Below are positions 45,292-62,966 of a DNA stretch of 64,000 nucleotides, one piece after another. A program made the position numbers and the translations under genes. The stretch covers positions 604,001 to 668,000 of the forward strand of contig NZ_LT907978.1 of the NCBI RefSeq assembly GCF_900209925.1, given 5' to 3'. A model generated the notes under the pieces. That model saw only the letters and a list, made by a program, of their open reading frames with translations. It did not search any database and was not told the origin of the DNA. The stretch comes from Anaerobutyricum hallii. Lineage in GTDB: Bacteria; Bacillota; Clostridia; Lachnospirales; Lachnospiraceae. The stretch's first letter is position 1. Every line of letters begins with the position of its first letter.

Positions 45292-45312
45292 TTGCAAATT
45301 ATGGGGTGGTTT

Positions 45313-46605
45313 ATGGATGTTAAATCTTGGATTTCTGATTCAAAAGTTATTGAAAAAAGCAAAAAAGGATATGCTCATTTTGATTTAAGAACCGATATTT
45401 CAAAAGTTTCAGAATATATTACTAGACCGGAGAAAATTGAACATCATGGTTTTTATCCTTTTATTCATTATGTTATGAAAATGGATAAATATAATAAAAA
45501 AGATGGGAAGGATACAAAAAAAAGAGAAATATGTTATGCAGCACATTTAGATAGATGTATTTATCAATATTATAGTGCTCTTTTAAATGAAAAATATAAT
45601 TTATTTTTAGAAAAAGAAGAACTAAACATGGTTCCAGTTGCATATCGTACAAATTTGCAAAAGAGTAATATACATATTGCAAAAGAAGTTATTGATTTTA
45701 TACGAGAACAGGGTGAAGCGTATGTGCTGATTGGAGATTTTACGGGTTTTTTTGACAATTTAGATCATAACTATTTAAAAAAGAATTGGTGCACTGTGAT
45801 GGGGGTTGATTCTCTTCCAGCAGATCATTATGCGGTATTTAAAAATATAACTAAATATAGTACTTGGGAATTAGAAGATTTGCTAAGAATAACTGGATTG
45901 GATCTAAAAGAGTTTAATAAAAGAAAAGTAGCACTAGATAAAGAAGAATATAGAAAATACCGTAAACACATTCAAAAAAATAAAAAATCATATCAGATTC
46001 CACAGGGTTCGCCAATTAGTGCAGTATTAGCCAATATTTATATGATAGAGGCAGATAAAGAGGTTAATAATTATGTGACTTTATTAAAGGGATTATATAG
46101 AAGATATAGCGATGATTTTATTGTTGTAATTCCTAAAAGAAATAATGACATTTCAGTGTTACAGGGAATTATAGATATAATAAAAGGAATTCCTAATTTA
46201 CAGTTAGAACCAAAAAAAACACAAGTGTTTTCTGTTGAAGATAATATTGTAAAAAATATAGGAAATAGCTTGTTAGATAATGCTAATACTAGTAAATCAA
46301 CAATTAATTTTCTTGGTTTTGTTTTCGATGGAAAGAAAGTGTCAGTCAGAGCAAAGACGATAAGTAAATATTATTATAGAATGTACAGAAAAGCAAAGCC
46401 TATTGCAAATAATCCTAATAATGAGGGTGCAGATAATTTATATAGAATATATTCTCAACATGGTGCTTCGGCAAAACCAGGTAATTTTTTTACATACATA
46501 AATCATGCAGAAGAAATTTTTGGGCAGAATGAATTGATTGGTCGTGACTTGAAAAATCATATTCCTAAGATTAGAAAAGCTTTAAAAAAATTCAAAGAAA
46601 GATAA
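45313..46605 (+). CDS. Stand-alone reverse transcriptase (DRT/UG-type candidate)
   Basis: The protein has about 430 residues. The RT palm motifs are present: motif A VLIGDFTGFFDNLDH (residues ~139-153), motif B IPQGSPISAVLANIYM and catalytic YSDD in YRRYSDDFIVV (~264). There is no maturase (X) domain, HNH nuclease or retron msr/msd hallmark that I can see, so a group-II intron is unlikely. The size and N-terminal KGYAHFD block fit the unassigned-group or defence-associated RTs. ATG 45313 and ATG 45301 are both possible starts; neither has a strong ribosome-binding site. It follows a structured non-coding segment and precedes a NUDIX gene by 43 bp. Confidence 0.8.
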   Translation: MDVKSWISDSKVIEKSKKGYAHFDLRTDISKVSEYITRPEKIEHHGFYPFIHYVMKMDKYNKKDGKDTKKREICYAAHLDRCIYQYYSALLNEKYNLFLEKEELNMVPVAYRTNLQKSNIHIAKEVIDFIREQGEAYVLIGDFTGFFDNLDHNYLKKNWCTVMGVDSLPADHYAVFKNITKYSTWELEDLLRITGLDLKEFNKRKVALDKEEYRKYRKHIQKNKKSYQIPQGSPISAVLANIYMIEADKEVNNYVTLLKGLYRRYSDDFIVVIPKRNNDISVLQGIIDIIKGIPNLQLEPKKTQVFSVEDNIVKNIGNSLLDNANTSKSTINFLGFVFDGKKVSVRAKTISKYYYRMYRKAKPIANNPNNEGADNLYRIYSQHGASAKPGNFFTYINHAEEIFGQNELIGRDLKNHIPKIRKALKKFKER

Positions 46606-46843: not shown

Positions 46844-47734
46844 CTAAGCTACATATGGCATCAACATTGCCGGATAGTAGCATTCAGCCGGTGTTTGGTA
46901 ATCAAGTGCAGAATGGCGTCGCTCAAAGTTGTAGGTGTGGATATACTGTCTGATAGCAGCCCTTGCTTCCCTGATGTTGTTGTACTGTGTCAGATAGGCT
47001 TCCTCATACTTGAAGCTGCGGAACCAGCGCTCAATCATGATGTTGTCTGCCCAGCGGCTTTTTCCATCCATACTCTGGCGGATACCGTTTTCCTTTACAA
47101 AGTCAATGTATTGCTGACTTGTAAACTGACAACCCTGATCTGAATTCAAGATCTGAGGTTTTGCCACTTTGAAAGCTTTTTTCAGGGCACTGATAACCAT
47201 TCTGGTATCAAGTGTGTCATCCACTTCCCAGCCGACAATACAACGGCTATACCAGTCGATCACGGCTGTCAGATACAGAAATCCGCGCTTGATCGGAATA
47301 TATGTAATGTCAATAGACCATGCCTGATTTGGTTTGTCTATGACCGCATTACGAAGAAGATATGGACATACTTTCGCCTGCTGCATTCGCTTGGAAAGAT
47401 TCATCTTTGGATAAATCGGGTAAATATCCATCTCATTCATGTAGCGTCTTGCCTTGCGGCGTCCAACCTGGTAACCACGGGTTTTTAACTGTGCAGACAT
47501 TTGTCTTGCGCCCCAAGTGGGATTATCTGTATGGAGATGATCAATGATCTCTTTGCAGGCCAGTTCCTCATCTGAAATAGGGGCACCCTTGTAATAAATG
47601 CTTGTACGGTTGATGTCAAGCAACCTGGCGCCAACAGAAGCCGGAATTTCCTTAGTCGTCAAAAGGTTTTGGACTAAACTTACTCTCGTAGTCAGGTCCA
47701 CAAATTTCTTCAGATTTTTTTTTGAGCCAGTCAA
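46844..47734 (-). CDS. IS3-family transposase OrfB (DDE integrase)
   Basis: The 296-residue protein has the HTH_21-like start (GARLLDINRTSIYY) and an rve integrase core: WSIDITYIP with first catalytic D, TAVIDWYSRCIVGWE, ILNSDQGCQFTS with the second D, and ERWFRSFKYEEAYL with the final E. It is expressed from orfA by -1 frameshifting at the A9 run 47715-47723. It appears intact. Confidence 0.93.
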   Translation of the reverse strand: MTGSKKNLKKFVDLTTRVSLVQNLLTTKEIPASVGARLLDINRTSIYYKGAPISDEELACKEIIDHLHTDNPTWGARQMSAQLKTRGYQVGRRKARRYMNEMDIYPIYPKMNLSKRMQQAKVCPYLLRNAVIDKPNQAWSIDITYIPIKRGFLYLTAVIDWYSRCIVGWEVDDTLDTRMVISALKKAFKVAKPQILNSDQGCQFTSQQYIDFVKENGIRQSMDGKSRWADNIMIERWFRSFKYEEAYLTQYNNIREARAAIRQYIHTYNFERRHSALDYQTPAECYYPAMLMPYVA

Positions 47735-47999
47735 CCTGCATGGTTAACTGACCAACCTTTTTGGCATACTCCGCTTTCTCCTTACGCTCTTCGGCAAGCT
47801 TTTCTTTGAGGTTTTCCTCACGCTTGTCGTCGAACACAACCGAAGCATTGTTCAAGAACTCTTTTTTCCAGTTGCGGAGCAGATTTGGTTGGATGTTATT
47901 TTCAGTTGCAAGGGTATTGAGATCTTTCTCACCCTTAAGCAGCTCAATTACAAGGTCTGATTTGAATTTGGCATTAAAATTTCTTCTTTGTCTGGACAT
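47652..47999 (-). CDS. IS3-family transposase OrfA (HTH)
   Basis: The 115-residue protein has an N-terminal helix-turn-helix (RRNFNAKFKSDLVIELLKGE, LATENNIQPNLLRNWKKEFL) and a C-terminal leucine-zipper-like helix. It overlaps orfB and provides DNA-end recognition. It starts at 47999 after an AAAGGATC site near the right end of the element. Confidence 0.92.
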   Translation of the reverse strand: MSRQRRNFNAKFKSDLVIELLKGEKDLNTLATENNIQPNLLRNWKKEFLNNASVVFDDKREENLKEKLAEERKEKAEYAKKVGQLTMQVDWLKKKSEEICGPDYESKFSPKPFDD

Positions 48000-50977: not shown

Positions 50978-51757
50978 ATGTTAAAGATAGCGGTTTATGG
51001 GAAGGGTGGCATCGGAAAGTCCACAGTGACCAGTAATTTAGCGGCGGCGTTTGCCAGTATGGGAAAGAAGGTTATCCAGATTGGATGTGACCCTAAGGCG
51101 GATTCTACGATTAATCTTCTTGGGGGAACAACGCCGATTCCAGTGATGAATTATATGCGTGAGTATGATGAGGACCCAGAACGGATCGAGGATATTTCAA
51201 AGATTGGTTATGGCGGGGTTTTATGTATTGAGACAGGGGGACCGACACCGGGTCTTGGCTGTGCAGGAAGAGGTATTATAGCGACGTTTAGCTTGCTGGA
51301 GGATTTGGAGTTATTTGAAACATATGAGCCGGATGTGGTGTTATATGATGTGCTTGGTGATGTAGTATGTGGTGGATTTGCAGCACCGATTCGTGAGGGG
51401 TATGCGAGTAAAGTACTGATCGTGACTTCCGGGGAGAAGATGGCTCTTTATGCAGCGAATAATATTAATAATGCAGTGAAGAATTTTGAGGACAGAAGTT
51501 ATGCGAAGGTGTATGGTATTGTGTTAAATCACAGGAATGTCGAGAAGGAGACAGAGAAGGTTGCTGAATTTGCGGATTTAGTCGGTCTTCCGATTGTGGG
51601 AAAGATTCCGAGAAGTGATGAGATTACCCGATGTGAAGATAAGGGAATGACTGTTATTGAGGGAGAGCCAGAATCTTCGGCGGCACAGGCATTTTTGAAG
51701 CTTGCAAAGGAACTTCTTGAAAATGCACAGGATACTGCGGAGGAAGAAGTATGGTAG
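50978..51757 (+). CDS. Nitrogenase-reductase-like Fe protein (NifH family), copy 1
   Basis: The 259-residue protein has the P-loop GKGGIGKST (residues 8-16), the Fe-protein block GCDPKADST, and the two cluster-ligand cysteines: Cys95 in [10 protein letters not shown] and Cys131 in [10 protein letters not shown] homodimer would hold one [4Fe-4S] cluster and pass electrons with ATP hydrolysis to its D/K partner. It is shorter than true NifH (~290). ATG 50978 follows TAGAGGAG. It overlaps the D-like gene by 7 nt and opens an 11-gene same-strand array that also contains hypFCDE. Confidence 0.92.
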
Positions 51758-53148
51758 AGAATGAAAAAACTACAATAGATAATACTGCAATAGAAAATAT
51801 AAGGAATGTCGTGAATGTAAAGAGCGCAATAAAAGAAACAGAAAGAGCGGAAAAAGCCTATTTCATTACAACAAAAGAACTTGCACAAGCAGGGAGAGAC
51901 AATATTCCTGATGAGCTGATTTCTTCAAAGCACCTGATCTATAGTTCGCCGGCGACTCTTGCGTATAATTCACCGGGAGCGCAGGGGTTTGGTGTGAAGA
52001 GAGCGGGGCTGGCGATTCCGGGTTCGGTTATGCTTCTTTTAGCTCCGGGATGCTGTGGAAGGAATACGACTATTTTAAGTGAACTTGGCGGGTACAGTGA
52101 ACGATTTTTTTATCTGATGATGGATGAGACAGATATCGTAACAGGGAGACATTTAAAGAAGGTGCCGCAGGCAGTAGAAGAGATTTATGATTGTCTGGAG
52201 ACGAAACCATCGGTTGTTATGATCTGTCTTACCTGTGTGGATGCTTTGTTGGGAACGGATATGGAACGTATTTGTAAGAAGGCGCAGAAGAGTGTAGGTA
52301 TTCCGGTTTTACCATGCTATATGTATGCACTTACAAGAGAGGGAAGAAAGCCTCCGATGGTACATGTCAGACAGTCGATTTATTCTTTGTTAGAACCAAG
52401 AAAGAAGAAGGGTACGTCTGTGAATCTATTAGGGCATTTTGCTCCGTTAGAGGATGACTGTGAGCTTTATGATCTCTTAAAGCAGCTTGGAGTTAAGACG
52501 ATTCGAGAGATTTCACGCTGTGAGAATTATGAAGAATATCTTGATATGGCGGAAGCGAATTTTAATCTTGTGTTAGATGCAGAGGCACGTTTTGCGGCGG
52601 CAGATATGCAGAAGCGTTTAGGAATTCCGTATATTGAGCTGACAAGGTTATATCAGCTTGACAAAATAAAGAATCAATATGCCTTGTTTGCGGCGGCACT
52701 TGGAAGTAAGTTTGATGATGAGATATATTTTAAAGAGGCATTTGAGGCGAAGGAAGCTTTTAAGAAAAAGTATCCGCATGTAGTGTTTGCGATTGGAGAA
52801 GGCTGCAATGCCAATGCATTTGAACTTGCATTTGCTCTGATTTGCTATGGATTTGAGGTCGCGGAAGTATTTGGTAATCTTTCAAAAGAGGATTTTGTTT
52901 ATATTGAGAAGATGGCGAAGGTAAGTCCAAAGACAAAGATTTATTCGAATTTAGAGCCAACGATGATTTATTATGAACCAGGTGAGAATCCGGTAGATAT
53001 CGTAATTGGAAAGGATGCTTCCTATTATCATCCGGAAGCGGCGAAGCTTGAGTGGAGTGATGATATACAGCCATTTGGTTACCGGGGAGTAAAGCATTTC
53101 TTCGAAGAATGTGAACGTGTACTGGAATTGGAAAGGGGGCAGATTTAA
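51751..53148 (+). CDS. Nitrogenase component 1-like D subunit, copy 1
   Basis: This 465-residue NifD/E-like protein keeps two P-cluster-type sites: Cys101-Cys102 in LAPGCCGRN (aligned with NifD Cys88) and Cys159/Cys162 in [13 protein letters not shown] (NifD Cys154). The Cys62 position is replaced in SPGAQG. The segment equivalent to the FeMo-co ligand Cys275 reads [13 protein letters not shown], so that ligand is absent. The C-terminal [10 protein letters not shown] block is typical of nitrogenase-like scaffolds. It therefore probably does not carry FeMo-co. It overlaps H1 and abuts K1 with no gap. The substrate is unknown. Confidence 0.85.
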
Positions 53149-54261
53149 ATGAAGGGACTTAGAAAGTATCTCTCACCGTTTGCTCCGGATCAGTCCGGTG
53201 CAGCAGCGGTACTTTGTGAATTTCATGGATTGATTATTATTTTAGATGCTGGTGGCTGTGCCGGAAATATCTGTGGATTTGATGAGCCGAGATGGTTTGA
53301 CAGCCGCAGTGCGATTTTTAGTGCGGGACTTCGTGATATGGATGCGATTCTTGGAAGAGATGATCGTCTGGTGGAGAAGATTGGAAAGGCTTGTGAGAAG
53401 CTTTCCGCAGATTTTATTGCAGTGATCGGGACTCCGGTTCCGGCAGTTATTGGAACAGACTATAAAGCACTTTCTCGAATGATTGAAAAGAAAACAGGAA
53501 TTCCGGCATTGACAATTGATACAGATGGAACGAAGCTTTATGATATCGGAGAGAAAAAGACATGGAAAGAGCTGTTTAAAAAGTTTGCTGTAAAACAGGA
53601 AGTAGAGCCGGGGCGTGTAGGTATTATCGGAGCGACACCGCTTTCATTTGGTGGCATTTATGAAGAGGACTTTTTAAAAGAGTATTTTAGCGGAAAAGGT
53701 TTTTCTAAAGTGATTTGTTACGGTATGGGTGATGGTTTAGAAGCAGTGAAAGAGGCAGCAGCGGCAGAGAAGAATATCGTTATATCACCGTCTGGAATTG
53801 CGGCAGCGAAGTATTTAAAGCAGAAGTTTGGAACGCCGTATGAAGTGTTTTGCCCACCAGAGATTATTCCGGAATGGAAAGAACGAAAAGAGCAAATAGA
53901 ACAAAATACAGCAACACCAAACAGGAAAGAACGCTCAGACAAGAAAGTTTTGATCGTACATCAGCAGGTATTGGCGAACACATTAAGAGAGGAATTACTT
54001 ACACTTGCTATGGAACAGAAAGTAGAAACAGATTCTGCAAAGATTACGGTTGCTTCCTGGTTTATGTTAGACAATGCACTAAAGAAGGAAGGGGATATTC
54101 TTTTTAAGGAAGAAGATGACTGGATTTCTTATATCAAAGAAAATGAATATGACATCATTATTGCTGATCCACTACTGAAAAAAGCAGTGCCATTTTATAA
54201 GGGAGAATGGTATGACCTGTCGCACTTTGCAATCTCAGGAAAGAAGAGGAAGACTGTATGA
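53149..54261 (+). CDS. Nitrogenase component 1-like K subunit, copy 1
   Basis: The 370-residue NifK/N-like protein is short for the family (~450-520). Cys23, Cys37 and Cys42 (LLILDAGGCAGNICG region) could ligate a bridging cluster. The third position equals VIGTPVPAVIGTD, where NifK has Cys153, so that Cys is missing. The motif DEPRW(F/Y) is shared with K2. It begins directly after the D1 stop, and its TGA overlaps the hypF ATG (ATGA). It should pair with D1. Confidence 0.85.
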   Translation: MKGLRKYLSPFAPDQSGAAAVLCEFHGLIIILDAGGCAGNICGFDEPRWFDSRSAIFSAGLRDMDAILGRDDRLVEKIGKACEKLSADFIAVIGTPVPAVIGTDYKALSRMIEKKTGIPALTIDTDGTKLYDIGEKKTWKELFKKFAVKQEVEPGRVGIIGATPLSFGGIYEEDFLKEYFSGKGFSKVICYGMGDGLEAVKEAAAAEKNIVISPSGIAAAKYLKQKFGTPYEVFCPPEIIPEWKERKEQIEQNTATPNRKERSDKKVLIVHQQVLANTLREELLTLAMEQKVETDSAKITVASWFMLDNALKKEGDILFKEEDDWISYIKENEYDIIIADPLLKKAVPFYKGEWYDLSHFAISGKKRKTV

Positions 54262-56693
54262 GAGTCTGTATCAGAGTATTCGGGATTGTTCAGGGCGTTG
54301 GATTTCGGCCGACTGTAAAGCGCCATGCAGATGTCTGTAGGATTGAAGGCAGTGTGAGTAACAAAGGACCTTATGTGGAAATCTTTGCACAGGGCAGTGA
54401 AGAATGTGTGAATCACTTTATTAAGAGGATTCAGGAGCAGCCGCCGAAACGAGCAGTTATCTTAAAGATGGATGTGGAAAGTCTGGAATCTGCAATAGAA
54501 TCTGACACAAAATTTGAAGTGAAATCGGAAGCAAATGCTGAATCAGATAGTAAAGAACGATTCCGTATCATAGAGAGTGAAAAAGAAGAGGGAGAGATTT
54601 TTGTTTCCCCGGATATTGCGATTTGTCCGGAATGTAAGAAGGAGCTTTATGATAAGAAGGATAGAAGGTATCTCCATCCATTTATTAACTGTACCTGCTG
54701 TGGACCGCGTCTTACTATTTTAGATTCCATGCCGTATGACAGAGTACGAACGAGCATGGGAGAGTTTCCAATGTGTGAAAAGTGTGAATGGGAATACACG
54801 CATGCAAAGACAAGAAGATTTGATGCCCAGCCGGTTTGCTGTAATGAATGTGGACCGGAGGTATATTTGCTTGGCAGGCCGGAACGGGGAGCGGATGCGA
54901 TTCGTTACACGAGAAAAGTAATTAGCGAAGGCGGCATTGTAGCGGTAAAAGGCATCGGAGGATTTCATCTTTGCTGCGATGCGTTAAAAGAAGAAACGGT
55001 TGCAGCACTTCGTGCCAGGAAAAAGAGACCGATGAAGCCATTTGCGGTGATGATGAAAGATTTGTCAGTAGTAAAGAGGGAATGTGAAGCAGCACCGTAT
55101 GTAGAAGAGATTCTTGATGGACACCAAAAGCCGATTATTTTGCTTCCGAAAAAGGCAGGAGGACATCTCTGTGAGAGTGTTGCACCGGATAATCCAAAGA
55201 TTGGTGTGATGCTTCCGTATGCACCGATACAGCTTCTGCTATTTGATTATCAGGATGATGTAGAAGTTTCAGATTGTCTCGTAATGACAAGTGCGAATAC
55301 ATCAGGTGCGCCGATTTGCCGGGATGATGAAGATGCACTGCGTGAACTTACCGGGCTTTGTGATGTGATCCTTTCCCATGACCGGAAAATACGGATTCGG
55401 GCAGATGATACCGTCATGGATTTTTATCAGGGAGAGCCGTATATGATTCGGCGTTCCAGAGGCTATGCTCCGCTTCCATTTATGATGGGCAATGAATTTA
55501 AAGGGCAGGTGCTTGCCGTTGGCGGTGAACTGAAGAATGCCTTTTGTATCGGAAAGAATCAGTTATTTTATCCATCTCCGTATATTGGAGATATGGGAGA
55601 TGTGCGAACGGTAAAGGCGTTAAAAGAATCTGTGAAGCGAATGGAAGAATTGTTAGAGGTAAAGCCACAGATTGTTGCCTGCGATATGCATCCGTCTTAT
55701 AATACAAGGACAGCCGCAGAAGAGATGGGGCTGCCGGTATTTCTGGTGCAGCATCATTATGCGCATATCCTTTCTTGTATGGCGGAGAATGAGTGGACAA
55801 CGAAAAAGCAGGTTATCGGGGTTTCTTTTGACGGGACCGGGTACGGAACGGATGGAACAATCTGGGGAGGAGAAATCCTTCTGGCAGATTATGATTCTTT
55901 TAAACGCTGGGGCTGTATTGAGCCATTTGCTCAGACCGGTGGAGATGCTTCTGCTAAAGAAGGATGGAGAATTGCAGTTTCTCTTCTTGGAAAGATTTAC
56001 GGAAAGGAAATCGCTCTTTCGATTATTGAAACATTAGGACTTTGTGAGTCAAAGCTGGCAAAGCTTCAGTTTACTATGGAAGAGCGCGGAATTAATACCG
56101 TAAAGTCCACGAGTGGCGGGCGGCTGTTTGATGCGGTCAGCGCGATTCTGGGGATTAGAAAGTCATCGACATTTGAAGGCGAGGCTTCGACTTCCTTACA
56201 GTTTGCAGCAGAAAAATGGCTGGATAGTCAGGAAGAAAAAATAGCAGGACAAGAGGACTTTGTAGAGTCTGGAGTAATTACAGAATATAGAGAAGAACAA
56301 AAAGAAATACTTGTAGAAGAGAAAAATCTGGGTCATCAGAATACAAAAGATGAGTTATATTATTTACCGACCCTGGCTCTCGTCAAAGAAGTAGTAGAGA
56401 GAAAACTGTTAGGAGAAAACAGCAATCAGCTTGCCTTACATTTTCACAAAGGTTTAGCCGGTATGATTGTTTCTGCCTGCGAAAAAGCAAGGGAAGAAAC
56501 CGGGATTGATACCGTTGCTCTAAGTGGCGGTGTTTACCAGAATAGATTACTGCTTGATTATAGCGTAACCATGTTAGAAAAAAGAGGATTTCATGTGCTG
56601 CGCCACCATTTACTTCCGCCAAATGACGGAGGAATCAGTCTTGGACAGGCGGTGGCAGCAATGAGAAGTATGTGTGTACAAAAAGGGGAATAA
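54258..56693 (+). CDS. hypF: Carbamoyltransferase HypF
   Basis: The 811-residue protein is complete: acylphosphatase domain (VFGIVQGVGFRP, residues ~5-16), two zinc fingers (CPEC...CTCC and CEKC...CNEC, ~118-215), a YrdC-like domain (GGIVAVKGIGGFHLCCDA) and a Kae1-like C-terminal domain (HHYAHILSCMAEN, VSFDGTGYGTDGTIWGGE, SGGVYQNR). HypF makes thiocarboxamide from carbamoyl phosphate on HypE, the precursor of the cyanide ligands of the Fe(CN)2CO unit in [NiFe] hydrogenases. Here it is embedded between two nitrogenase-like sets, with ATGA overlap to K1. Confidence 0.97.
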   Translation: MRVCIRVFGIVQGVGFRPTVKRHADVCRIEGSVSNKGPYVEIFAQGSEECVNHFIKRIQEQPPKRAVILKMDVESLESAIESDTKFEVKSEANAESDSKERFRIIESEKEEGEIFVSPDIAICPECKKELYDKKDRRYLHPFINCTCCGPRLTILDSMPYDRVRTSMGEFPMCEKCEWEYTHAKTRRFDAQPVCCNECGPEVYLLGRPERGADAIRYTRKVISEGGIVAVKGIGGFHLCCDALKEETVAALRARKKRPMKPFAVMMKDLSVVKRECEAAPYVEEILDGHQKPIILLPKKAGGHLCESVAPDNPKIGVMLPYAPIQLLLFDYQDDVEVSDCLVMTSANTSGAPICRDDEDALRELTGLCDVILSHDRKIRIRADDTVMDFYQGEPYMIRRSRGYAPLPFMMGNEFKGQVLAVGGELKNAFCIGKNQLFYPSPYIGDMGDVRTVKALKESVKRMEELLEVKPQIVACDMHPSYNTRTAAEEMGLPVFLVQHHYAHILSCMAENEWTTKKQVIGVSFDGTGYGTDGTIWGGEILLADYDSFKRWGCIEPFAQTGGDASAKEGWRIAVSLLGKIYGKEIALSIIETLGLCESKLAKLQFTMEERGINTVKSTSGGRLFDAVSAILGIRKSSTFEGEASTSLQFAAEKWLDSQEEKIAGQEDFVESGVITEYREEQKEILVEEKNLGHQNTKDELYYLPTLALVKEVVERKLLGENSNQLALHFHKGLAGMIVSACEKAREETGIDTVALSGGVYQNRLLLDYSVTMLEKRGFHVLRHHLLPPNDGGISLGQAVAAMRSMCVQKGE

Positions 56694-56696
56694 ATT

Positions 56697-56906
56697 ATGT
56701 GCGTAGGATTACCAGCAAAAGTTATGACAATGAAAGACGGAATGGCAGTTGTAGATGCATCCGGAGCAAAGAGAGAAGTTTCAGCGGAGCTTATTGAGAA
56801 TCTTGAGCCGGGCGATTATGTAATGGTCCATGCCGGTATTGCGATTGCAAAGATTACAGAAGAAGATGAGGATGAAGCAGAAGATCTTCTGGGGGGATTA
56901 CTATGA
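56697..56906 (+). CDS. hypC: Hydrogenase assembly chaperone HypC
   Basis: This 69-residue protein has the essential Cys2 (MCVGLPAKV) that carries the Fe(CN)2CO moiety with HypD, and a C-terminal acidic tail. It starts 3 nt after the hypF stop and its stop overlaps the hypD start. The N-terminus differs slightly from the classical MCLAIPGKV. HypC normally docks with the hydrogenase large subunit; no such subunit is in the window. Confidence 0.95.
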   Translation: MCVGLPAKVMTMKDGMAVVDASGAKREVSAELIENLEPGDYVMVHAGIAIAKITEEDEDEAEDLLGGLL

Positions 56907-57958
56907 AAGAACAGTTAAAAAAAGCAAAAGCTATCATTGAGGGATACGATGGACCTCCGGTCCGCGTTATGGAAGTGTGTGGAACCCACACGCATGAGAT
57001 CTTTCATCTTGGTGTGCGGAAGATTCTGCCGCAGCAAGTAGAACTGATTTCCGGTCCGGGCTGTCCGGTCTGCGTCACACCAGCAGACTTCATTGATGAG
57101 GCGGTGTGGCTTGCTTTAGAAAAAAATGTGACAATCTGTACATTTGGGGATCTGGTTCGTGTGCCGGGAAGTACAAAGAGTCTTGCAGATGCCAGAAGCC
57201 TTGGCGGAAAGATTCAGATGGTTTATTCTCCAATGGATGCGTTTGAATATGCCAAAGAGCATAAAGAGGAGCAGGTTGTATTTCTTTCTGTTGGATTTGA
57301 GACAACCACTCCGGCAAGCTGTCTTTCAGTAAAGATGGCAAAAGAAGCAGGTCTTACGAATTATGCGCTTCTTACTGCGAATAAAACAATGCCAGGAGCC
57401 TATGAAATGTTAAAAAACAGTGCGGATGTTTTCCTGTATCCGGGACACGTCAATGCGATTACCGGAAATGCATTAAACAAAAAGCTTTGTGAGGAAGAAG
57501 GAATCAGCGGTATAGTAACCGGCTTTACTGCCAGCGAGATTTTAACTGCATTTGCTGTATTATTAAAGAAGTTCCCGGAAGGCAAACCGTTTTTTGTTAA
57601 TGCCTATCCAAGGGTTGTTACGGAAGAGGGAAGTATTCCGGCACAGAAACTGATCAAAGAATGGATGGAACCATGTGATTCTCAGTGGAGAGGACTTGGT
57701 ATGATTAAAAATTCCGGACTTCGTTTAAGAAAAGAAGCGCAGGACTTTGATGCAAGAGTGAAGTTTTCGATTCCGAAGATGGAAGGAAGAACAAGTCCGG
57801 CCTGTCGCTGTGGAGATGTTTTACAGGGCAAATGTCTTCCAACAGATTGTAAAGTGTTTGGAAAAGGATGTACACCACTTCATCCGATCGGGGCATGTAT
57901 GGTGTCGAACGAAGGGGCCTGTTCAGCATATTACCAGTATAACAGCCGAGGAGAATAA
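56903..57958 (+). CDS. hypD: Hydrogenase maturation protein HypD
   Basis: The 351-residue protein has EVCGTHTHEIF, GPGCPVCVTP, CTFGDL and the C-terminal Fe-S cysteines (CRCGDVLQGKCLPTDC, then GKGCTPLHPIGAC). It forms the HypCD scaffold on which Fe, two CN and one CO assemble. It overlaps hypC by 4 nt. A palindromic repeat separates it from hypE. Confidence 0.97.
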   Translation: MKEQLKKAKAIIEGYDGPPVRVMEVCGTHTHEIFHLGVRKILPQQVELISGPGCPVCVTPADFIDEAVWLALEKNVTICTFGDLVRVPGSTKSLADARSLGGKIQMVYSPMDAFEYAKEHKEEQVVFLSVGFETTTPASCLSVKMAKEAGLTNYALLTANKTMPGAYEMLKNSADVFLYPGHVNAITGNALNKKLCEEEGISGIVTGFTASEILTAFAVLLKKFPEGKPFFVNAYPRVVTEEGSIPAQKLIKEWMEPCDSQWRGLGMIKNSGLRLRKEAQDFDARVKFSIPKMEGRTSPACRCGDVLQGKCLPTDCKVFGKGCTPLHPIGACMVSNEGACSAYYQYNSRGE

Positions 57959-57960
57959 AT

Positions 57961-58028
57961 ATATCAGATGTGAGATGACTCCCACCTTTGTAGGTGGCGA
58001 GCAGCAAGAATGCCGGGGCATTCTTGAA
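57961..58028. repeat. Short palindromic element between hypD and hypE
   Basis: ACTCCCACCT...AGGTGGCGAG and AAGAATGCC/GGCATTCTT form two stems in an 87-bp gap. The first stem resembles the IS605-like elements at 28974 and 61624, and the second resembles the core stem of family-2 palindromes. A related stem precedes the PAP2 gene near 34660. Confidence 0.6.
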
Positions 58029-58045
58029 AAGAAAGAGGAAAAACA

Positions 58046-59062
58046 ATGGATAACTTAAAAGGAAAAACAGTTTCTCTTGCCCATGGTGCAGGAGGAAAAC
58101 AGACAAGCGAATTAATTGACCAGGTATTTAAAGCACATTTTGCCAATCCGGAACTGACAAGTGATGATGCGGCAGTATTAAAAATGAAAGAAGGAAAGAT
58201 TGCATTTACAACGGATGGATTCATCGTATCTCCGTCAGAATTTCCGGGAGGAAATATCGGAAAATTAAGCATTTGCGGTACGGTGAATGATTTGTCCTGT
58301 ATGGGAGCAAAACCACTGTATCTTTCCTGTGCCTTTGTTATTGAAGAGGGATTTCCAATGGAAAAACTCGAAGCAATTGCAGCCGCAATGGAAAAAACAG
58401 CAAAGGAAGCCGGTGTAAAGATTGTTGCAGGTGATACAAAGGTTGCCGGTAAGGGACAGGTTGATGGCGTATTTATTACAACAACAGGTATCGGTGAGAT
58501 TCAGGAAGGTGTAGAGACCTCTGGATTTATGGCAAAACCAGGTGATGCGGTTATTGTCAGTGGAGATATCGGAAGACATGGTTGTACTATTCTTCTTGCA
58601 AGAGAGGATTTTGGAATTGATGCCGATGTGACAAGTGACTGTGCACCACTTTGGGGAACAGTGCAGGATATTTTATCAGTGACGAAGGATGTACACGTAA
58701 TCCGCGATGCAACACGAGGTGGTGTAGGAACAGTTTTATACGAGATCGCAGAGCAGAGCCATACAGGAATACGGCTGAATGCAGAGGAAATTCCAGTACA
58801 AGAAAGCGTAAAAGGTGTGTGCGGAATGCTTGGATTAGAGCCACTTTATCTTGCCTGTGAAGGTCGTCTTGTCATTTTTGCGCCAAAAGAAAATGCAGAA
58901 GCGATCGTTGCAAAGTTACGTGAAGGAAAATATTCAACAGAGGCAGCGATTATCGGTGAAGTTACCGAAGAAATGCCGGGAAGAGTTGTAGTGACAACAG
59001 AAATCGGAGCAGAAACATTACTGCCACCGCCGGGGGGAGAACTTTTACCAAGAATCTGTTAA
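58046..59062 (+). CDS. hypE: Hydrogenase maturation protein HypE
   Basis: The 338-residue protein has AHGAGGKQTSELID at the ATP site, the AIR-synthase-like core (VIVSGDIGRHG, DATRGGVGTVLYEI) and the conserved C-terminal PRIC, whose Cys receives the carbamoyl group and dehydrates it to thiocyanate. With HypF, HypC and HypD it completes the cyanide-ligand pathway. HypA and HypB (nickel insertion) are not found in the window. The ATG follows GAAAGAGGAA. Confidence 0.96.
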   Translation: MDNLKGKTVSLAHGAGGKQTSELIDQVFKAHFANPELTSDDAAVLKMKEGKIAFTTDGFIVSPSEFPGGNIGKLSICGTVNDLSCMGAKPLYLSCAFVIEEGFPMEKLEAIAAAMEKTAKEAGVKIVAGDTKVAGKGQVDGVFITTTGIGEIQEGVETSGFMAKPGDAVIVSGDIGRHGCTILLAREDFGIDADVTSDCAPLWGTVQDILSVTKDVHVIRDATRGGVGTVLYEIAEQSHTGIRLNAEEIPVQESVKGVCGMLGLEPLYLACEGRLVIFAPKENAEAIVAKLREGKYSTEAAIIGEVTEEMPGRVVVTTEIGAETLLPPPGGELLPRIC

Positions 59063-59080
59063 GTTAGAGAAAGGAAAAAC

Positions 59081-59329
59081 ATGGAGAATACAAGAATCGC
59101 TGTTCTCTCCATTATCGTAGAGGACAGTGAAAGTACGGCAAAGTTAAATGAAATGATTCACGATTATGCAGAGTATGTTGTAGGCAGGATGGGTATTCCT
59201 TATCGGGAGAAAAATATCAGTATTATCAGTTTGGTAATCGATGCTCCGCAGACAAAGATCAGTGAGCTGTCTGGAAAAATAGGGCGCCTTTCCGGTGTGA
59301 CAGCAAAAGCTGCTTACGCAAAAGTGTAA
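59081..59329 (+). CDS. TM1266-family iron-only hydrogenase system regulator
   Basis: This 82-residue, ACT/NikR-C-like small protein has [10 protein letters not shown] and [20 protein letters not shown], close to the TM1266 family usually found beside [FeFe]-hydrogenase maturase HydF. It lies 18 bp after hypE and 29 bp before H2 in the same array. A ligand-sensing role is assumed from the fold. Confidence 0.8.
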
Positions 59330-59358
59330 TCAGTGTACGGATAAAAGGAAAAGAAGAT

Positions 59359-60114
59359 ATGATTAAGATAGCGGTATATGGAAAGGGTGGAATCGGAAAG
59401 TCTACAACAGTTTCTAATATAGCAGCAGTATTTGCCAGCGAGGGACTTCGAGTGATGCAGATTGGCTGTGATCCAAAGGCAGATTCAACGGTGTTACTGC
59501 GTCATGGTGAGAAAGTAGAGACGGTTCTTGACCTTGTACGAACGAAAAAAGATAATTTTACATTAGAAGATATCGTTAAAGAAGGCTTTGCCGGTGTCTG
59601 TTGTGTAGAAGCCGGCGGACCATCTCCCGGACTGGGCTGTGCCGGAAGAGGAATTATTGCGGCGTTAGAAACATTAGAAAAAAAGGGAGCTTACGAGAAA
59701 TACTGTCCGGATGTTGTAATTTACGATGTTCTTGGCGATGTTGTCTGTGGCGGATTTTCCATGCCGATGCGTCGTGGATATGCCGATAAAGTATTTGTCA
59801 TTACTTCTGGTGAGAATATGGCAATTCATGCAGCGGCGAATATCGCCATGGCAGTAGAAAACTTTAAGGATAGAGGATACGCACAGCTGGGAGGCCTTAT
59901 TTTAAATCGCAGAAATGTAAAAAATGAAGAGGAAAAAGTTGCGGAACTTGCAGAAGATATTCACAGTAAGGTAATTGGAACATTATCAAGAAGTGAACTT
60001 GTTACAGATGCAGAAGAACAGCAGAAGACAGTAATGGAAGCATATCCGAATTCGCCGATGGCAGAAGAATACCGGGTACTTGCAAAACAGATCAGGAAGC
60101 TGTGTGGAATCTGA
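59359..60114 (+). CDS. Nitrogenase-reductase-like Fe protein (NifH family), copy 2
   Basis: The 251-residue protein has the P-loop GKGGIGKST (8-16), GCDPKADST, Cys94 in [10 protein letters not shown] and Cys130 in GDVVCGGFS. It is close to H1 over its whole length, so the two arose by duplication of an H-D-K unit. It presumably feeds D2/K2 with electrons. A start with AAAAGGAAAAGAAG upstream is clear. It is shorter than nitrogen-fixing NifH. Confidence 0.92.
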
Positions 60115-60206
60115 TGAGAAGATAAGAGTAAGCTAAAATAAATTTTTTGGGATTTTTTGAAAAAGTGATACAAGCTGTAGAACATTTTACAGAGGAGGTG
60201 CGGATT

Positions 60207-61580
60207 TTGCTTGAAATGTTACATGGAAAAGCAAAGGATGAAGCATGGAATAATCAGGTAAAAGAAAAATTATCTCCAGCATTGCAGGAAGAAGTTTCTT
60301 TTAAAGATGCAGCCTGGCCATCGCCCTTTGTTCCGGGATTAGAATATAACAGTCCGGCACATGGACCATGGAATATCGTACATATGGGAATGCTTTTACC
60401 AGGTGCCCATCAGATTTATGTATGTGGTGCAAACTGTAACAGAGGTGTAATCCTTACTGCGGCAGAAATGAATGCTGGAGATAGATTTTCCTTTGTAGAA
60501 ATAAAAGAAGAAGATTTATTTAACGGACAAATGGAAGAACTTGTTATCGAAGGAGTAAGTGATATTCTTCATAAATTACCGGAAAAACCATCGGTAGTTC
60601 TTTTATTCACTGTTTGTGTTCATCATTTTATGGGATGTGATCTCACGTATATTTATGATACATTAAGAGGACGATTCCCCGAGCAGTGTTTTGTAGATTG
60701 TTACATGGATCCGATTATGCAAAAAGAAGGGCTGACCCCGGATCAGAAGTTAAGAGCCGGTTTATATAAGCCGCTTCCAATGCGTGAAAAGAATTTAAAA
60801 CAGATAAATATTATTGGCAATGATTTTCCGACAAGAGAGGAAACAGAATTAAAACAGATTGTAAAAGAGGCAGGTTATACAGTAAAAGACATTACAGAAT
60901 GTAAAACCTATGATGAATATTTATCCATGGCAGAAAGTTATTTAAATATTGCCTGTTATCCACCGGCAAAGTATGGAGCAGAGCAGTTATCCAAACGACT
61001 TGGAATGAAGTTTCTCTATCTTCCGTTTTCCTTTGATTACAATGAGATAGATACCCAGCTAAAAAGTCTGGTAAAAGAAATGCAGGGATGTGAGATGCCA
61101 GATACCAGTTTACTTCAGAAAAGATGTGAGCGTATGTTAAAAGAAACGAAAAAACTTGTCGGTAATATGCCGATTACAATAGATGCTACAGCAGTTCCCC
61201 GGTTTTTAGGGCTGACGAAGCTGCTGATCACACATGGGTTTTCTGTCGTAAAAGTATTTGCGGATGGATTTTTGGCAGAGGAAAAAGCAGATTACTTGTG
61301 GTTAAAGAAAAATGCTCCTGATCTTAAAATAGGTGCAACAATACATCCGAACATGAGAGTGTATCCAAGAAATTCACAGGAAAAAGTACTTGCAATCGGA
61401 CAAAAAGCCGCTTATTTTTCCGGGACAGAGCATTTCGTAAATATGGTAGAAGGCGGAGGTTTGCATGGTTATGATGGAATCTGCGAGCTTTGTTTAAAAA
61501 TACAGGAGGCCTATCAGACAAAAAAAGATACAAGAGATCTGATTGTCCGTAAAGGATTAGGATGTGAAAGCTGTGTCTAA
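60207..61580 (+). CDS. Nitrogenase component 1-like D subunit, copy 2
   Basis: The protein has about 457 residues from TTG 60207, chosen because GAGGAGGTG (60192-60200) stands 6-7 nt upstream; ATG 60216 is an alternative, and TTG 60147 has no ribosome-binding site. Cys73 and Cys77 (YVCGANCNRG) and Cys137/Cys144 (TVCVHHFMGC) are placed like P-cluster-type ligands; the first NifD Cys is replaced in NSPAHG. No clear FeMo-co Cys275 equivalent is visible. It diverges strongly from D1, so D1/K1 and D2/K2 may have separate jobs, one perhaps a scaffold and one the enzyme. Confidence 0.82.
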   Translation: MLEMLHGKAKDEAWNNQVKEKLSPALQEEVSFKDAAWPSPFVPGLEYNSPAHGPWNIVHMGMLLPGAHQIYVCGANCNRGVILTAAEMNAGDRFSFVEIKEEDLFNGQMEELVIEGVSDILHKLPEKPSVVLLFTVCVHHFMGCDLTYIYDTLRGRFPEQCFVDCYMDPIMQKEGLTPDQKLRAGLYKPLPMREKNLKQINIIGNDFPTREETELKQIVKEAGYTVKDITECKTYDEYLSMAESYLNIACYPPAKYGAEQLSKRLGMKFLYLPFSFDYNEIDTQLKSLVKEMQGCEMPDTSLLQKRCERMLKETKKLVGNMPITIDATAVPRFLGLTKLLITHGFSVVKVFADGFLAEEKADYLWLKKNAPDLKIGATIHPNMRVYPRNSQEKVLAIGQKAAYFSGTEHFVNMVEGGGLHGYDGICELCLKIQEAYQTKKDTRDLIVRKGLGCESCV

Positions 61581-61623
61581 ACTGTCCTATTGTATATTAA
61601 CTAACACCTATATAACAAAAGAC

Positions 61624-61693
61624 ATTTCAAGTCGAGCAGTTCCTGTTACTCACCACCTGAAAGAGATGGGAGTCTTCTCGACTGAGATAAACA
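61624..61693. repeat. Palindromic (IS200/IS605-end-like) element, short form
   Basis: It has the same ends as the element at 28974 (ATTTCAAGTCGAGCAG and CTTCTCGACTGAGATAAACA) but only about 70 bp, with a single inner stem CACCACCT/AGATGGGAG. It is inserted in the 141-bp gap between D2 and K2. Confidence 0.65.
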
Positions 61694-61721
61694 AAACATT
61701 TTTGCCGGAAAGGATGTAGTT

Positions 61722-62966
61722 ATGAAACAAGTATCAGTAACATTATCAACTTATACGGCAGACGTCTCCGGAGTATGTTCTGCCCTCTATGAGCTTGGGG
61801 GCATGGTAGTGATCCATGATCCGTCCGGCTGTAATTCTACTTATAATACTCACGATGAGCCACGATGGTATGAGATGGACAGCCTTGTATTTATCTCCGG
61901 TCTTTCACAGATGGATGCCATTATGGGGAATGATGATAAATTTATTCACGATATCGTGCGGGCGGCAAAAGAACTTCAGCCTCGCTTTATTGCCTTAGTG
62001 CGAACACCGATTCCTCTGATGACAGGAACAGATTTTGAGGGGATATCACGTGTCATAGAAAAACAAACAGGAATTCCTGTATTCTACTTTCCGACAAGTG
62101 GAATGCATACCTATGTAAAGGGAGCAGGAATGGCAATGGAAACAATCGCAAGAGAACTTGTGCCAGCAGGTAGGAAATCTGTAAAAGAAAGAAAAAACAA
62201 GCAGGAGAATCCATTGAAAATCAATATTCTAGGAGCAACTCCGCTTGATTTTTCCATAAACTCTACCTTAGATTCTATAAAAGAATTTCTAAGCCGACAT
62301 TTTGAGATTATCAGTACTTTTGCTATGGGAAGCTCTATAGAAGACATACAAAGAGCAGGAGAAGCAGACATAAATCTTGTCATCTCATCTGTTGGAGTTT
62401 TGGCGGCAAAAGCATTAGAAGAACGTTTTCATACCCCATATGTTATTGGTACACCAATCATTGGGTTTGAAAATGTATTAGCTGAAAAATTAATAGAATC
62501 CGCCTGGACAAAAAAGTCACAGACAGCCTATTTTAGTGTTTTACAAAAAGCACACAAAAAAGATACAGCTAATTTTACAACAATACAAAATACAGAAGCT
62601 GTTTCTAATTTAAATAAAATAAAAAGACTAACAGAAACAATAGAAAAAAATAAAGTCAGCGGTAACGTTTATATTATCGGTGAATCTGTTATATCCCAGT
62701 CATTAAAAGCGGCACTGGCATTACGATACGGAATAGAAGCCACTGTAATCTGTCCGCTTGAGACAGAACCGGAATATACAGAGAAAGATGTCTTACTCCT
62801 TTCTTCCGAGGAAGACATCAAAGAAGCAATAATGGATGCCGACACCGTAATTGCCGACCCAATCTATAAAACAATCTGTTCCGAAAAAGTAAATTTTGTG
62901 GCAATGCCACACGAAGCATACTCAGGAAGAATCTACAGAAAAGAAGTTTGTGATTTTATTCATTGA
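61722..62966 (+). CDS. Nitrogenase component 1-like K subunit, copy 2
   Basis: The 414-residue protein has Cys19 (VSGVCSALYEL) and Cys37 (DPSGCNSTYN), matching NifK Cys70 and Cys95, and the shared THDEPRWY motif. The third position reads VRTPIPLMTGTD, without Cys. It starts after AAAGGATG, 141 bp from D2, with a palindromic element between. The stop codon (TGA at 62964-62966) lies in the terminal repeat of composite element 2, so the C-terminus may have been altered by that insertion. It is the last gene of the array. Confidence 0.83.
   Translation: MKQVSVTLSTYTADVSGVCSALYELGGMVVIHDPSGCNSTYNTHDEPRWYEMDSLVFISGLSQMDAIMGNDDKFIHDIVRAAKELQPRFIALVRTPIPLMTGTDFEGISRVIEKQTGIPVFYFPTSGMHTYVKGAGMAMETIARELVPAGRKSVKERKNKQENPLKINILGATPLDFSINSTLDSIKEFLSRHFEIISTFAMGSSIEDIQRAGEADINLVISSVGVLAAKALEERFHTPYVIGTPIIGFENVLAEKLIESAWTKKSQTAYFSVLQKAHKKDTANFTTIQNTEAVSNLNKIKRLTETIEKNKVSGNVYIIGESVISQSLKAALALRYGIEATVICPLETEPEYTEKDVLLLSSEEDIKEAIMDADTVIADPIYKTICSEKVNFVAMPHEAYSGRIYRKEVCDFIH

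Follow-up and report, generated by a model that had tools for sequence, protein, structure and literature searches.

HydG, which acts beside HydE and HydF in the maturation of [FeFe] hydrogenases, is the tyrosine-cleaving source of CO and CN, and the product of HypCDEF in the maturation of [NiFe] hydrogenases is Fe(CN)2CO. Here we describe an operon of Anaerobutyricum hallii in which hypF, hypC, hypD, hypE and a gene of the TM1266 family stand between two sets of nitrogenase-like genes, H1-D1-K1 and H2-D2-K2. The operon lies in bases 604001-668000 of contig NZ_LT907978.1 (assembly GCF_900209925.1); this stretch of 64,000 nucleotides is called the window and its coordinates are used for genes. 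We consider it highly probable that the operon replaces HydG, because the distributions of the operon and of HydG are complementary and HydE and HydF are linked to the operon. What is observed is that the genes are linked, that the operon and HydG are distributed in a complementary way, and that most of the operon genomes examined have no [NiFe] large subunit and no NifB.

In the passages cited here, HydG is regarded as the CO and CN source for [FeFe] hydrogenases, releasing them as such or as an Fe(CO)2(CN) unit (PMC9431212). According to the same passages (Di Leonardo 2022, PMC9431212 Table 1), all eight Clostridium acetogens studied contain group B, A3 and A4 [FeFe] hydrogenases together with HydE, HydF and HypCDEF. 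HydG was not found in five of the eight, including C. ljungdahlii, C. ragsdalei and C. carboxidivorans, and these five species still have [FeFe] hydrogenases; HypA/B are missing in five of the eight, and both findings are left without explanation there. The three named species carry the operon.

Nitrogenase-like proteins of this kind have been noted earlier. In the passages cited from Dos Santos 2012 (PMC3464626), two closely linked NifHEN-like sets are reported in Coprococcus catus and Dorea (the red clade). For C. catus and other Firmicutes hydrogenase maturation proteins are described there as neighbours of NifHEN-like proteins, and a role in active-site metallocluster assembly is guessed. 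The cysteine pattern of the red clade, two in the E-like and one in the N-like subunit, is as in the operon, whereas those passages mention neither a link to HydE/HydF nor an absence of HydG. The preliminary description of this DNA knew of no characterised system of this kind; the association was in print as one sentence in 2012 (PMC3464626). Our literature search, which covered neither bioRxiv nor most subscription journals, found no paper joining the absence of HydG to nitrogenase-like or Hyp genes. The pieces of the puzzle in the cited parts of the 2012 and 2022 papers fit the reading of the operon as a replacement of HydG.

Complementary distribution of HydG and the operon

When 84,980 species genomes were scanned with a profile of D1, 315 related loci came up, of which the best 80 were compared (L-numbers denote loci and G-numbers genomes in this analysis). 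HydG (TIGR03955) was searched in 60 genomes, comprising 48 operon genomes and 12 operon-less members of the family picked for completeness, and was over the cut-off in 2/48 operon genomes as against 6/12 comparators. HydE-like hits, which score about 50-86 bits to the HydG model, were present in 47 of these operon genomes, and the comparators that gave them were the same six that have HydG. Among the genomes bearing a HydE-like hit, HydG occurs in 2/47 operon genomes versus 6/6 comparators (Fisher exact p = 1.2e-6; 1.1e-6 with 48 operon genomes, 4e-4 over all 60 genomes), and these p-values overstate the contrast because related genomes are not independent. Only six HydE-positive comparators, from one family and so picked, enter this comparison, and the identity of HydE is confirmed by model or BLAST in 22/47 operon genomes and 5/6 comparators.

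No HydG over the cut-off was found in the A. hallii genome (the host), where the best HydG-like match is ThiH (515 bits to ThiH). The stronger sub-cut-off match in C. carboxidivorans is also ThiH (535 bits to ThiH), and in both genomes the neighbours of ThiH look like further thi genes. The HydE-like hit was the only one in C. ljungdahlii, C. ragsdalei and the Coriobacteriia. For HydA, C. carboxidivorans scored 538 bits with TIGR02512.

HydE and HydF beside the operon

Clustering of flanking genes revealed two recurrent neighbours, HydF (545 bits) and HydE (559 bits), both over the NCBIfam cut-off. When 113 loci with D1- or D2-like genes were scanned (overlapping places, divergent sets and flanks of unequal length included), HydE and/or HydF lay at most 6.7 kb from the operon in 28, and HydG was found at none of them. 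Within the Anaerobutyricum group hydE is located 14-87 bases (L043, L045 and the double L083, L046, L068) or about 740-860 bases (L044, L047, L060, L071) behind K2. Elsewhere hydF is found 16 bases behind K2 (L056) or overlapping it (L141, L143), hydE lies 54 bases behind hypE in L135, and in Coriobacteriia hydE/hydF are upstream of the operon on the opposite strand. HydE of the host (584 bits) is encoded at another place in the genome (L204), away from the operon. By reading of translations, the K2 frame in L043:15606-17624 and L046:15815-17800 continues into a ThiF/TcdA-like E1 protein before hydE, and a similar-looking gene also adjoins hydE in L214 and L215.

Among operon genomes hydE and hydF stand together without hydG in L207 and L212. 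In two HydG genomes the order is hydE-hydG-hydF (L216 and L217, with TM1266 in front in one of them), and the TM1266 relative is placed beside hydE-hydG-hydF (L217) or hydG (L218). HydE and a TM1266 protein, and in relatives of the host also HydF, which was found there beside the operon or beside HydE, are shared between the known HydE/HydF/HydG maturation system and the operon genomes, and we propose the same [2Fe] product with CO and CN for both; the operon genomes differ in that only 2/48 have HydG, whose place the operon would fill. In the HydE and HydF trees the operon and HydG kinds are intermixed with 4 label changes each, of which well-supported branches force at least two (HydE) and at least three (HydF); the HydG search covered only part of the rows labelled operon. 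Given this mixing, the operon and HydG appear to be interchangeable modules that work with the same HydE and HydF.

Organization and conservation of the operon

The gene order H1-D1-K1-hypF-hypC-hypD-hypE-TM1266-H2-D2-K2, with all eleven genes on the forward strand and ATGA overlaps at K1/hypF and hypC/hypD, is borne out as the preliminary description gave it, and its suggestion to look for co-occurrence revealed a conserved unit. Neither of two outcomes named there as contrary to its idea, a [NiFe] hydrogenase elsewhere in the genome and a lack of operon conservation, was observed. H1-D1-K1-hypF-C-D-E is complete, ordered and on one strand in 64 of the 80 loci and is interrupted by sequence ends in the other 16; a deviating order of H1 to hypE was seen in none of the 80, and the unbroken order spans two phyla. 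The operon occurs in Anaerobutyricum, Blautia, Roseburia faecis, Eubacterium ramulus, Coprococcus comes and Anaerostipes, in Clostridium ljungdahlii, ragsdalei, carboxidivorans and drakei, and in many Coriobacteriia (another phylum). HypF comes after K1 or a fused D1-K1 in 64/64 complete loci. D1-K1 fusion proteins of about 800-940 amino acids are encoded upstream of hypF in 11 of the 80 loci (L089, L090, L116, L117, L120, L121, L130, L135, L145, L152, L153). D1 and K1 of L156 lie 2.9 kb apart, and the D1 of L155 is split over two frames.

The H2-D2-K2 set is placed behind TM1266, as in the host, or ahead of H1 (Anaerostipes type). Among the 64 complete loci D2 is present in 57 and K2 in 53, D2 being lost through a sequence end in L094 and L156. 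In Coriobacteriia D2-K2 is located downstream and no H2 was found behind hypE; therefore a single H reductase may serve both DK pairs there. The operon stops at TM1266 without H2-D2-K2 in L054:8326-16501 (G016) and L055:3127-11352 (G012), and these genomes carry a divergent H2-D2-K2 on a separate contig (L077 and L076), with D2/K2 35-40% identical. L057, L058, L059, L076, L077 and L078 hold other H-D-K sets, whose D/K proteins are about 25-41% identical to D1/D2/K1/K2 and which have no hyp genes within the sequenced stretch examined. G096, G091 and G104 each contain several nitrogenase-like copies.

The features of the operon are listed in Table 1. HypF, HypD, HypE and the TM1266 protein were judged by NCBIfam equivalog cut-offs and HypC by the Pfam cut-off. 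The cysteine-rich stretches of HypD align with the solved HypD (2z1d), and HypE aligns with PDB 2z1t to the last residue, the PRIC ending being common to both. As the models are passed, the motifs intact and the HypF domains complete, the Hyp set looks functional and canonical. H1 is nearest to the C. pasteurianum Fe protein 1cp2 among PDB sequences. From the conserved start among relatives, the true start of D2 is probably near 60207. Apart from the operon, a reverse-transcriptase-like open reading frame (YSDD motif) adjoins an IS3-type-looking transposase pair at window positions 45292-46605 and 46844-47999, both named by reading the translations.

Table 1. Genes of the operon in window coordinates, with the matches on which their names are based.
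Gene	Product	Length (residues)	Position	Strand	Evidence
H1	NifH-like ATP-dependent reductase	259	50978..51757	+	PF00142 301 bits; 7-base overlap with D1
D1	Nitrogenase-like alpha/NifE-like subunit	465	51751..53148	+	PF00148 107 bits; nearest PDB sequences NifE
K1	Nitrogenase-like beta/NifN-like subunit	370	53149..54261	+	PF00148 85 bits
hypF	HypF carbamoyltransferase	811	54258..56693	+	TIGR00143 726 bits (cut-off 466); full domain set; PDB 3vth
hypC	HypC	69	56697..56906	+	PF01455 83 bits, above Pfam cut-off; N-terminus MCVGLP
hypD	HypD	351	56903..57958	+	TIGR00075 386 bits (cut-off 193); aligned to PDB 2z1d
hypE	HypE	338	58046..59062	+	TIGR02124 428 bits (cut-off 252); C-terminal PRIC
TM1266	TM1266-family protein	82	59081..59329	+	TIGR03959 115 bits (cut-off 61); family name: putative [FeFe]-hydrogenase (iron-only hydrogenase) system regulator
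H2	Second NifH-like reductase	251	59359..60114	+	NifH model 331 bits, below 394
D2	Divergent nitrogenase-like subunit		60147..61580	+	PF00148 56 bits
K2	Nitrogenase-like beta/NifN-like subunit	414	61722..62966	+	PF00148 103 bits

Hyp proteins without a [NiFe] target

The absence of a [NiFe] hydrogenase and of HypA, noted earlier for the window, extends to the whole host genome, which is one contig of 3.52 Mb and 99.9% complete: PF00374, PF00346 and PF01155 gave 0 hits each. HypD and HypF are over the cut-off in one copy each in the host, both within the operon, and this HypD is 97% identical to HypD of Anaerobutyricum hallii DSM 3353.

The same pattern is seen in 44 operon genomes (the host and 43 of the 80 loci, selected because they come from named isolates or lie on long contigs). 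PF00374 was found in 8 of them and the [NiFe] large subunit was undetected in 36/44, while HypD is present in 44/44, as a single copy in 39. HypF, sought in 48 operon genomes (the 44 and G005, G021, G013 and G022), is over the cut-off once, on the operon contig, in 47; in G022, where D1 and hypE-K2 are on two contigs, no HypF reached the cut-off. As the operon HypF is the sole copy, any [NiFe] hydrogenase in these genomes would, if matured, depend on it. HypA is over the cut-off in 17/44 and is therefore rejected as a required partner. Twelve of those 17 genomes have HypA without a [NiFe] large subunit (G125, G134, G141, G142, G144-G146, G148-G151, G156).

Among 116 genomes (host and relatives) PF00374 was detected in 20 and HypD over the cut-off in 37. 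All 20 PF00374 relatives have HypD, and of the 17 HypD genomes without PF00374, 16 contain the operon, whole or in part; in the remaining one, G077, HypD is a fragment that lies where a contig ends. HypD thus tracks the operon among the 96 relatives without PF00374 (Fisher p = 4e-16); the one operon genome without HypD among them, G002, has its operon cut by a contig end. In operon genomes such as G008, G020, G005 and G021, which have a [NiFe] hydrogenase, a further set of hypC, hypD and hypE, 35-44% identical, adjoins it, and no second HypF was found in them. In the HypD tree 69 operon copies are separated from 18 hydrogenase-linked copies by a branch with Shimodaira-Hasegawa-like approximate likelihood ratio test (SH-aLRT) support of 99, a split that is less sure than this value suggests because several hydrogenase-linked copies form very long branches. 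C. ragsdalei (L160), C. ljungdahlii (L159) and C. drakei (L161) have a [NiFe] large subunit and operon HypD/HypF as the only copies, so that their [NiFe] hydrogenase either shares these proteins or stays unmatured; HypA over the cut-off was found in neither C. ljungdahlii nor C. ragsdalei.

In comparison to the HypCDEF branch of [NiFe] maturation, the four proteins are the same, with models passed and motifs intact, and Fe(CN)2CO is expected as their product. The operon differs in having no [NiFe] target in 36/44 genomes and no HypA in the host, in a HypD branch of its own and in the locking of its hyp genes to nitrogenase-like genes.

Nitrogenase-like proteins

H1 (314 bits) and H2 (331 bits) both stay under the 394-bit cut-off of the NifH model TIGR01287, and the best nitrogenase-family score of D1 is 81 bits (NifE) against a cut-off of 505. 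None of H1, H2, D1, K1, D2 and K2 reaches a curated nitrogenase, DPOR, COR, CfbC or CfbD cut-off, and a DPOR/CfbCD-like tetrapyrrole reductase is rejected on this ground. The D/K proteins share superfamily and fold with Mar (methylthio-alkane reductase, group IV-A), DPOR/COR and CfbCD but have different gene neighbours. The Cys275-bearing R. rubrum group is presumably Mar. In the cited part of Dos Santos 2012, Cys275-bearing groups, e.g. R. rubrum, are tied to sulphur-metabolism genes (PMC3464626).

Cysteines C101, C102, C159, C162 and C175 of D1 are conserved in alignments of 14 and 71 rows (the latter numbered on L120), and C37 and C42 of K1, C93, C97 and C157 of D2 and C37 of K2 are invariant among aligned relatives. 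Mean column identity is 72% for D1 (14 rows) and 55% for D2 (17 rows, two of them divergent). By sequence, both D1 and K1 are nearest to NifE among solved structures, and C162 of D1 and C37 of K1 are both matched by a cysteine in NifE. In profile alignments the column of the NifE cysteine in MVCSKAML, which we take to be a cluster ligand, holds Asp, Asn or His in D1 and Ala in K1. NifB is over the cut-off in 5/44 operon genomes, all Clostridium, and not in 39/44; in the whole host genome it appears only as weak partial matches.

As the NifE-aligned cysteine is replaced in D1 and K1 and NifB is rarely over the cut-off, a cluster like the iron-molybdenum cofactor (FeMoco) is unlikely in D1/K1. 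Nitrogen fixation and a Mar-type FeMoco-like cofactor are disfavoured on the same grounds. The predicted structure of a natural D1-K1 fusion adopts the nitrogenase/DPOR fold, its metal-site loops being of low confidence. A [4Fe-4S]-bearing D1K1 scaffold with an open cavity would fit better, which we infer and do not read from the model because those loops are of low confidence. Such a scaffold resembles NifEN/NifH in the nearness of D1/K1 to NifE, in the shared fold and in the ATP-driven reductase partner, and we propose a scaffold role for D1K1 as well; it differs in the absence of NifB from most operon genomes and in the replaced NifE cluster cysteine.

A proposed route to the H-cluster

Very probably, HypCDEF and the two nitrogenase-like complexes supply an Fe-CO-CN unit to HydE/HydF for the H-cluster. 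HypF and HypE would turn carbamoyl phosphate into a HypE thiocyanate, which is known Hyp chemistry, and HypCD would assemble an Fe(CN)2(CO)-type unit. This unit, or its iron, CN and CO, would be passed to the NifEN-like D1K1 and not to a [NiFe] precursor, and we lean slightly towards D1K1 taking the HypCD product directly. H1 with D2K2 and H2 would then shift the ligand set towards Fe(CO)2(CN), the usual product of HydG, for example by addition of CO formed from CO2 and removal of one CN; that the CO is made from CO2 is doubtful. Finally, HydE and HydF would assemble and insert the [2Fe] cluster. From the transfer to D1K1 onwards, and in all chemical detail, this is what we infer. The hand-over of the HypCDEF product to D/K, supposed in the preliminary description, stands as the natural reading of one conserved unit in a host that has neither a [NiFe] large subunit nor HypA nor a complete NifB, whereas the unknown small-molecule reduction suggested there as its end point is not supported. 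In its full form, as a second, non-homologous H-cluster route in which HypCDEF and two nitrogenase-like complexes jointly replace the radical S-adenosylmethionine (radical-SAM) enzyme HydG and D/K act as an organometallic scaffold that exchanges ligands or forms CO on an Fe-CN-CO unit, the proposal seems to us reasonably likely.

Besides the related genomes, the small comparator set and the partly confirmed HydE noted above, several points weigh against a replacement of HydG by the operon. The ligand ratio of Fe(CN)2CO does not match the H-cluster, and we know of no enzyme for the change from Fe(CN)2CO to Fe(CO)2(CN). HydG and the operon occur together in C. drakei G121 and C. thailandense G124, the operon genome G140 gave no HydE-like hit, and for the host the need of an H-cluster is judged from HydE. 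The labels in the HydE and HydF trees are not strongly clustered (75/500 and 34/500 shuffles, respectively, are as low); therefore HydE may lack adaptation to a new substrate. The tie of D2-K2 to the unit is looser than that of D1-K1: D2 is unlinked in the complete loci L093, L097, L098, L126 and L135, and K2 was undetected behind D2 in L110, L122, L130 and L152. The [NiFe] enzymes of C. ljungdahlii, C. ragsdalei and C. drakei could also use the operon Hyp proteins. In the passages cited from PMC9431212, a HydG with an atypical motif is assigned to C. autoethanogenum, atypical HydG candidates are proposed for other acetogens, and a purified [FeFe] hydrogenase is cited only for C. autoethanogenum.

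Another explanation, which takes the idea of the preliminary description further, is that the pathway ends at D1K1 or D2K2, inside which HypCDEF and HydE/HydF would build a CO/CN cofactor for an unknown reduction. The position of HypF behind K1 or the D1-K1 fusion in all 64 complete loci, the resemblance of the two DK pairs to NifDK plus NifEN, the better conservation of D1 (72%) than of D2 (55%) and the undetected [NiFe] large subunit in 36/44 genomes would all agree with it. However, it leaves unexplained why HydG is found in 2/48 operon genomes while the HydE-like hit is kept in 47/48, and where acetogens with several [FeFe] hydrogenases and no detected HydG obtain their cofactor (PMC9431212 Tables 1 and 3, as cited), and we regard it as improbable.

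The sentence of Dos Santos 2012 could also be taken to mean that the nitrogenase-like proteins aid Hyp in [NiFe] maturation. The association with hyp genes is real, and C. ljungdahlii, C. ragsdalei and C. drakei combine a [NiFe] large subunit with operon HypD/HypF only. However, the 36/44 operon genomes without a [NiFe] large subunit contradict this for most genomes, HypA is over the cut-off in only 17/44, and the PF00374 relatives all have HypD, the operon-bearing ones among them with a second hypC, D and E beside the hydrogenase. In C. autoethanogenum, moreover, the [NiFe] genes are barely transcribed (PMC9431212 Table 2, as cited), and such an aid seems very improbable. Equally hard to credit is the view that cyanide and CO of HypCDEF merely diffuse to HydF, the H-D-K proteins having an unrelated job and the cluster being a regulatory grouping for hydrogen metabolism. 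HydF and HydE alone can capture trace CO/CN in vitro, with about 1% activity (PMC9431212, in the passage cited), but diffusion would account neither for the D1-K1-hypF overlaps, nor for the D1-K1 fusions retained ahead of hypF, nor for the same order in two phyla.

Implications

If the operon does replace HydG, the H-cluster would be built by other chemistry in a large number of species (315 D1 loci), prominent gut genera and the C. ljungdahlii gas-fermentation group among them. Nitrogenase-like proteins would then take part in assembling hydrogenases, and HypCDEF, so far tied to [NiFe] hydrogenases, would have another target. The cofactor chemistries of nitrogenases and of both [NiFe] and [FeFe] hydrogenases would meet in a single pathway, in human gut bacteria as well as in industrial acetogens. 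The puzzle of acetogens without detected HydG and HypA/B would be answered, and a tyrosine-independent maturation set would become available for synthetic biology. The D1-K1 fusions, with both subunits in one chain, are handy for structure work, and the role of a large orphan clade of nitrogenase-like proteins becomes directly testable.

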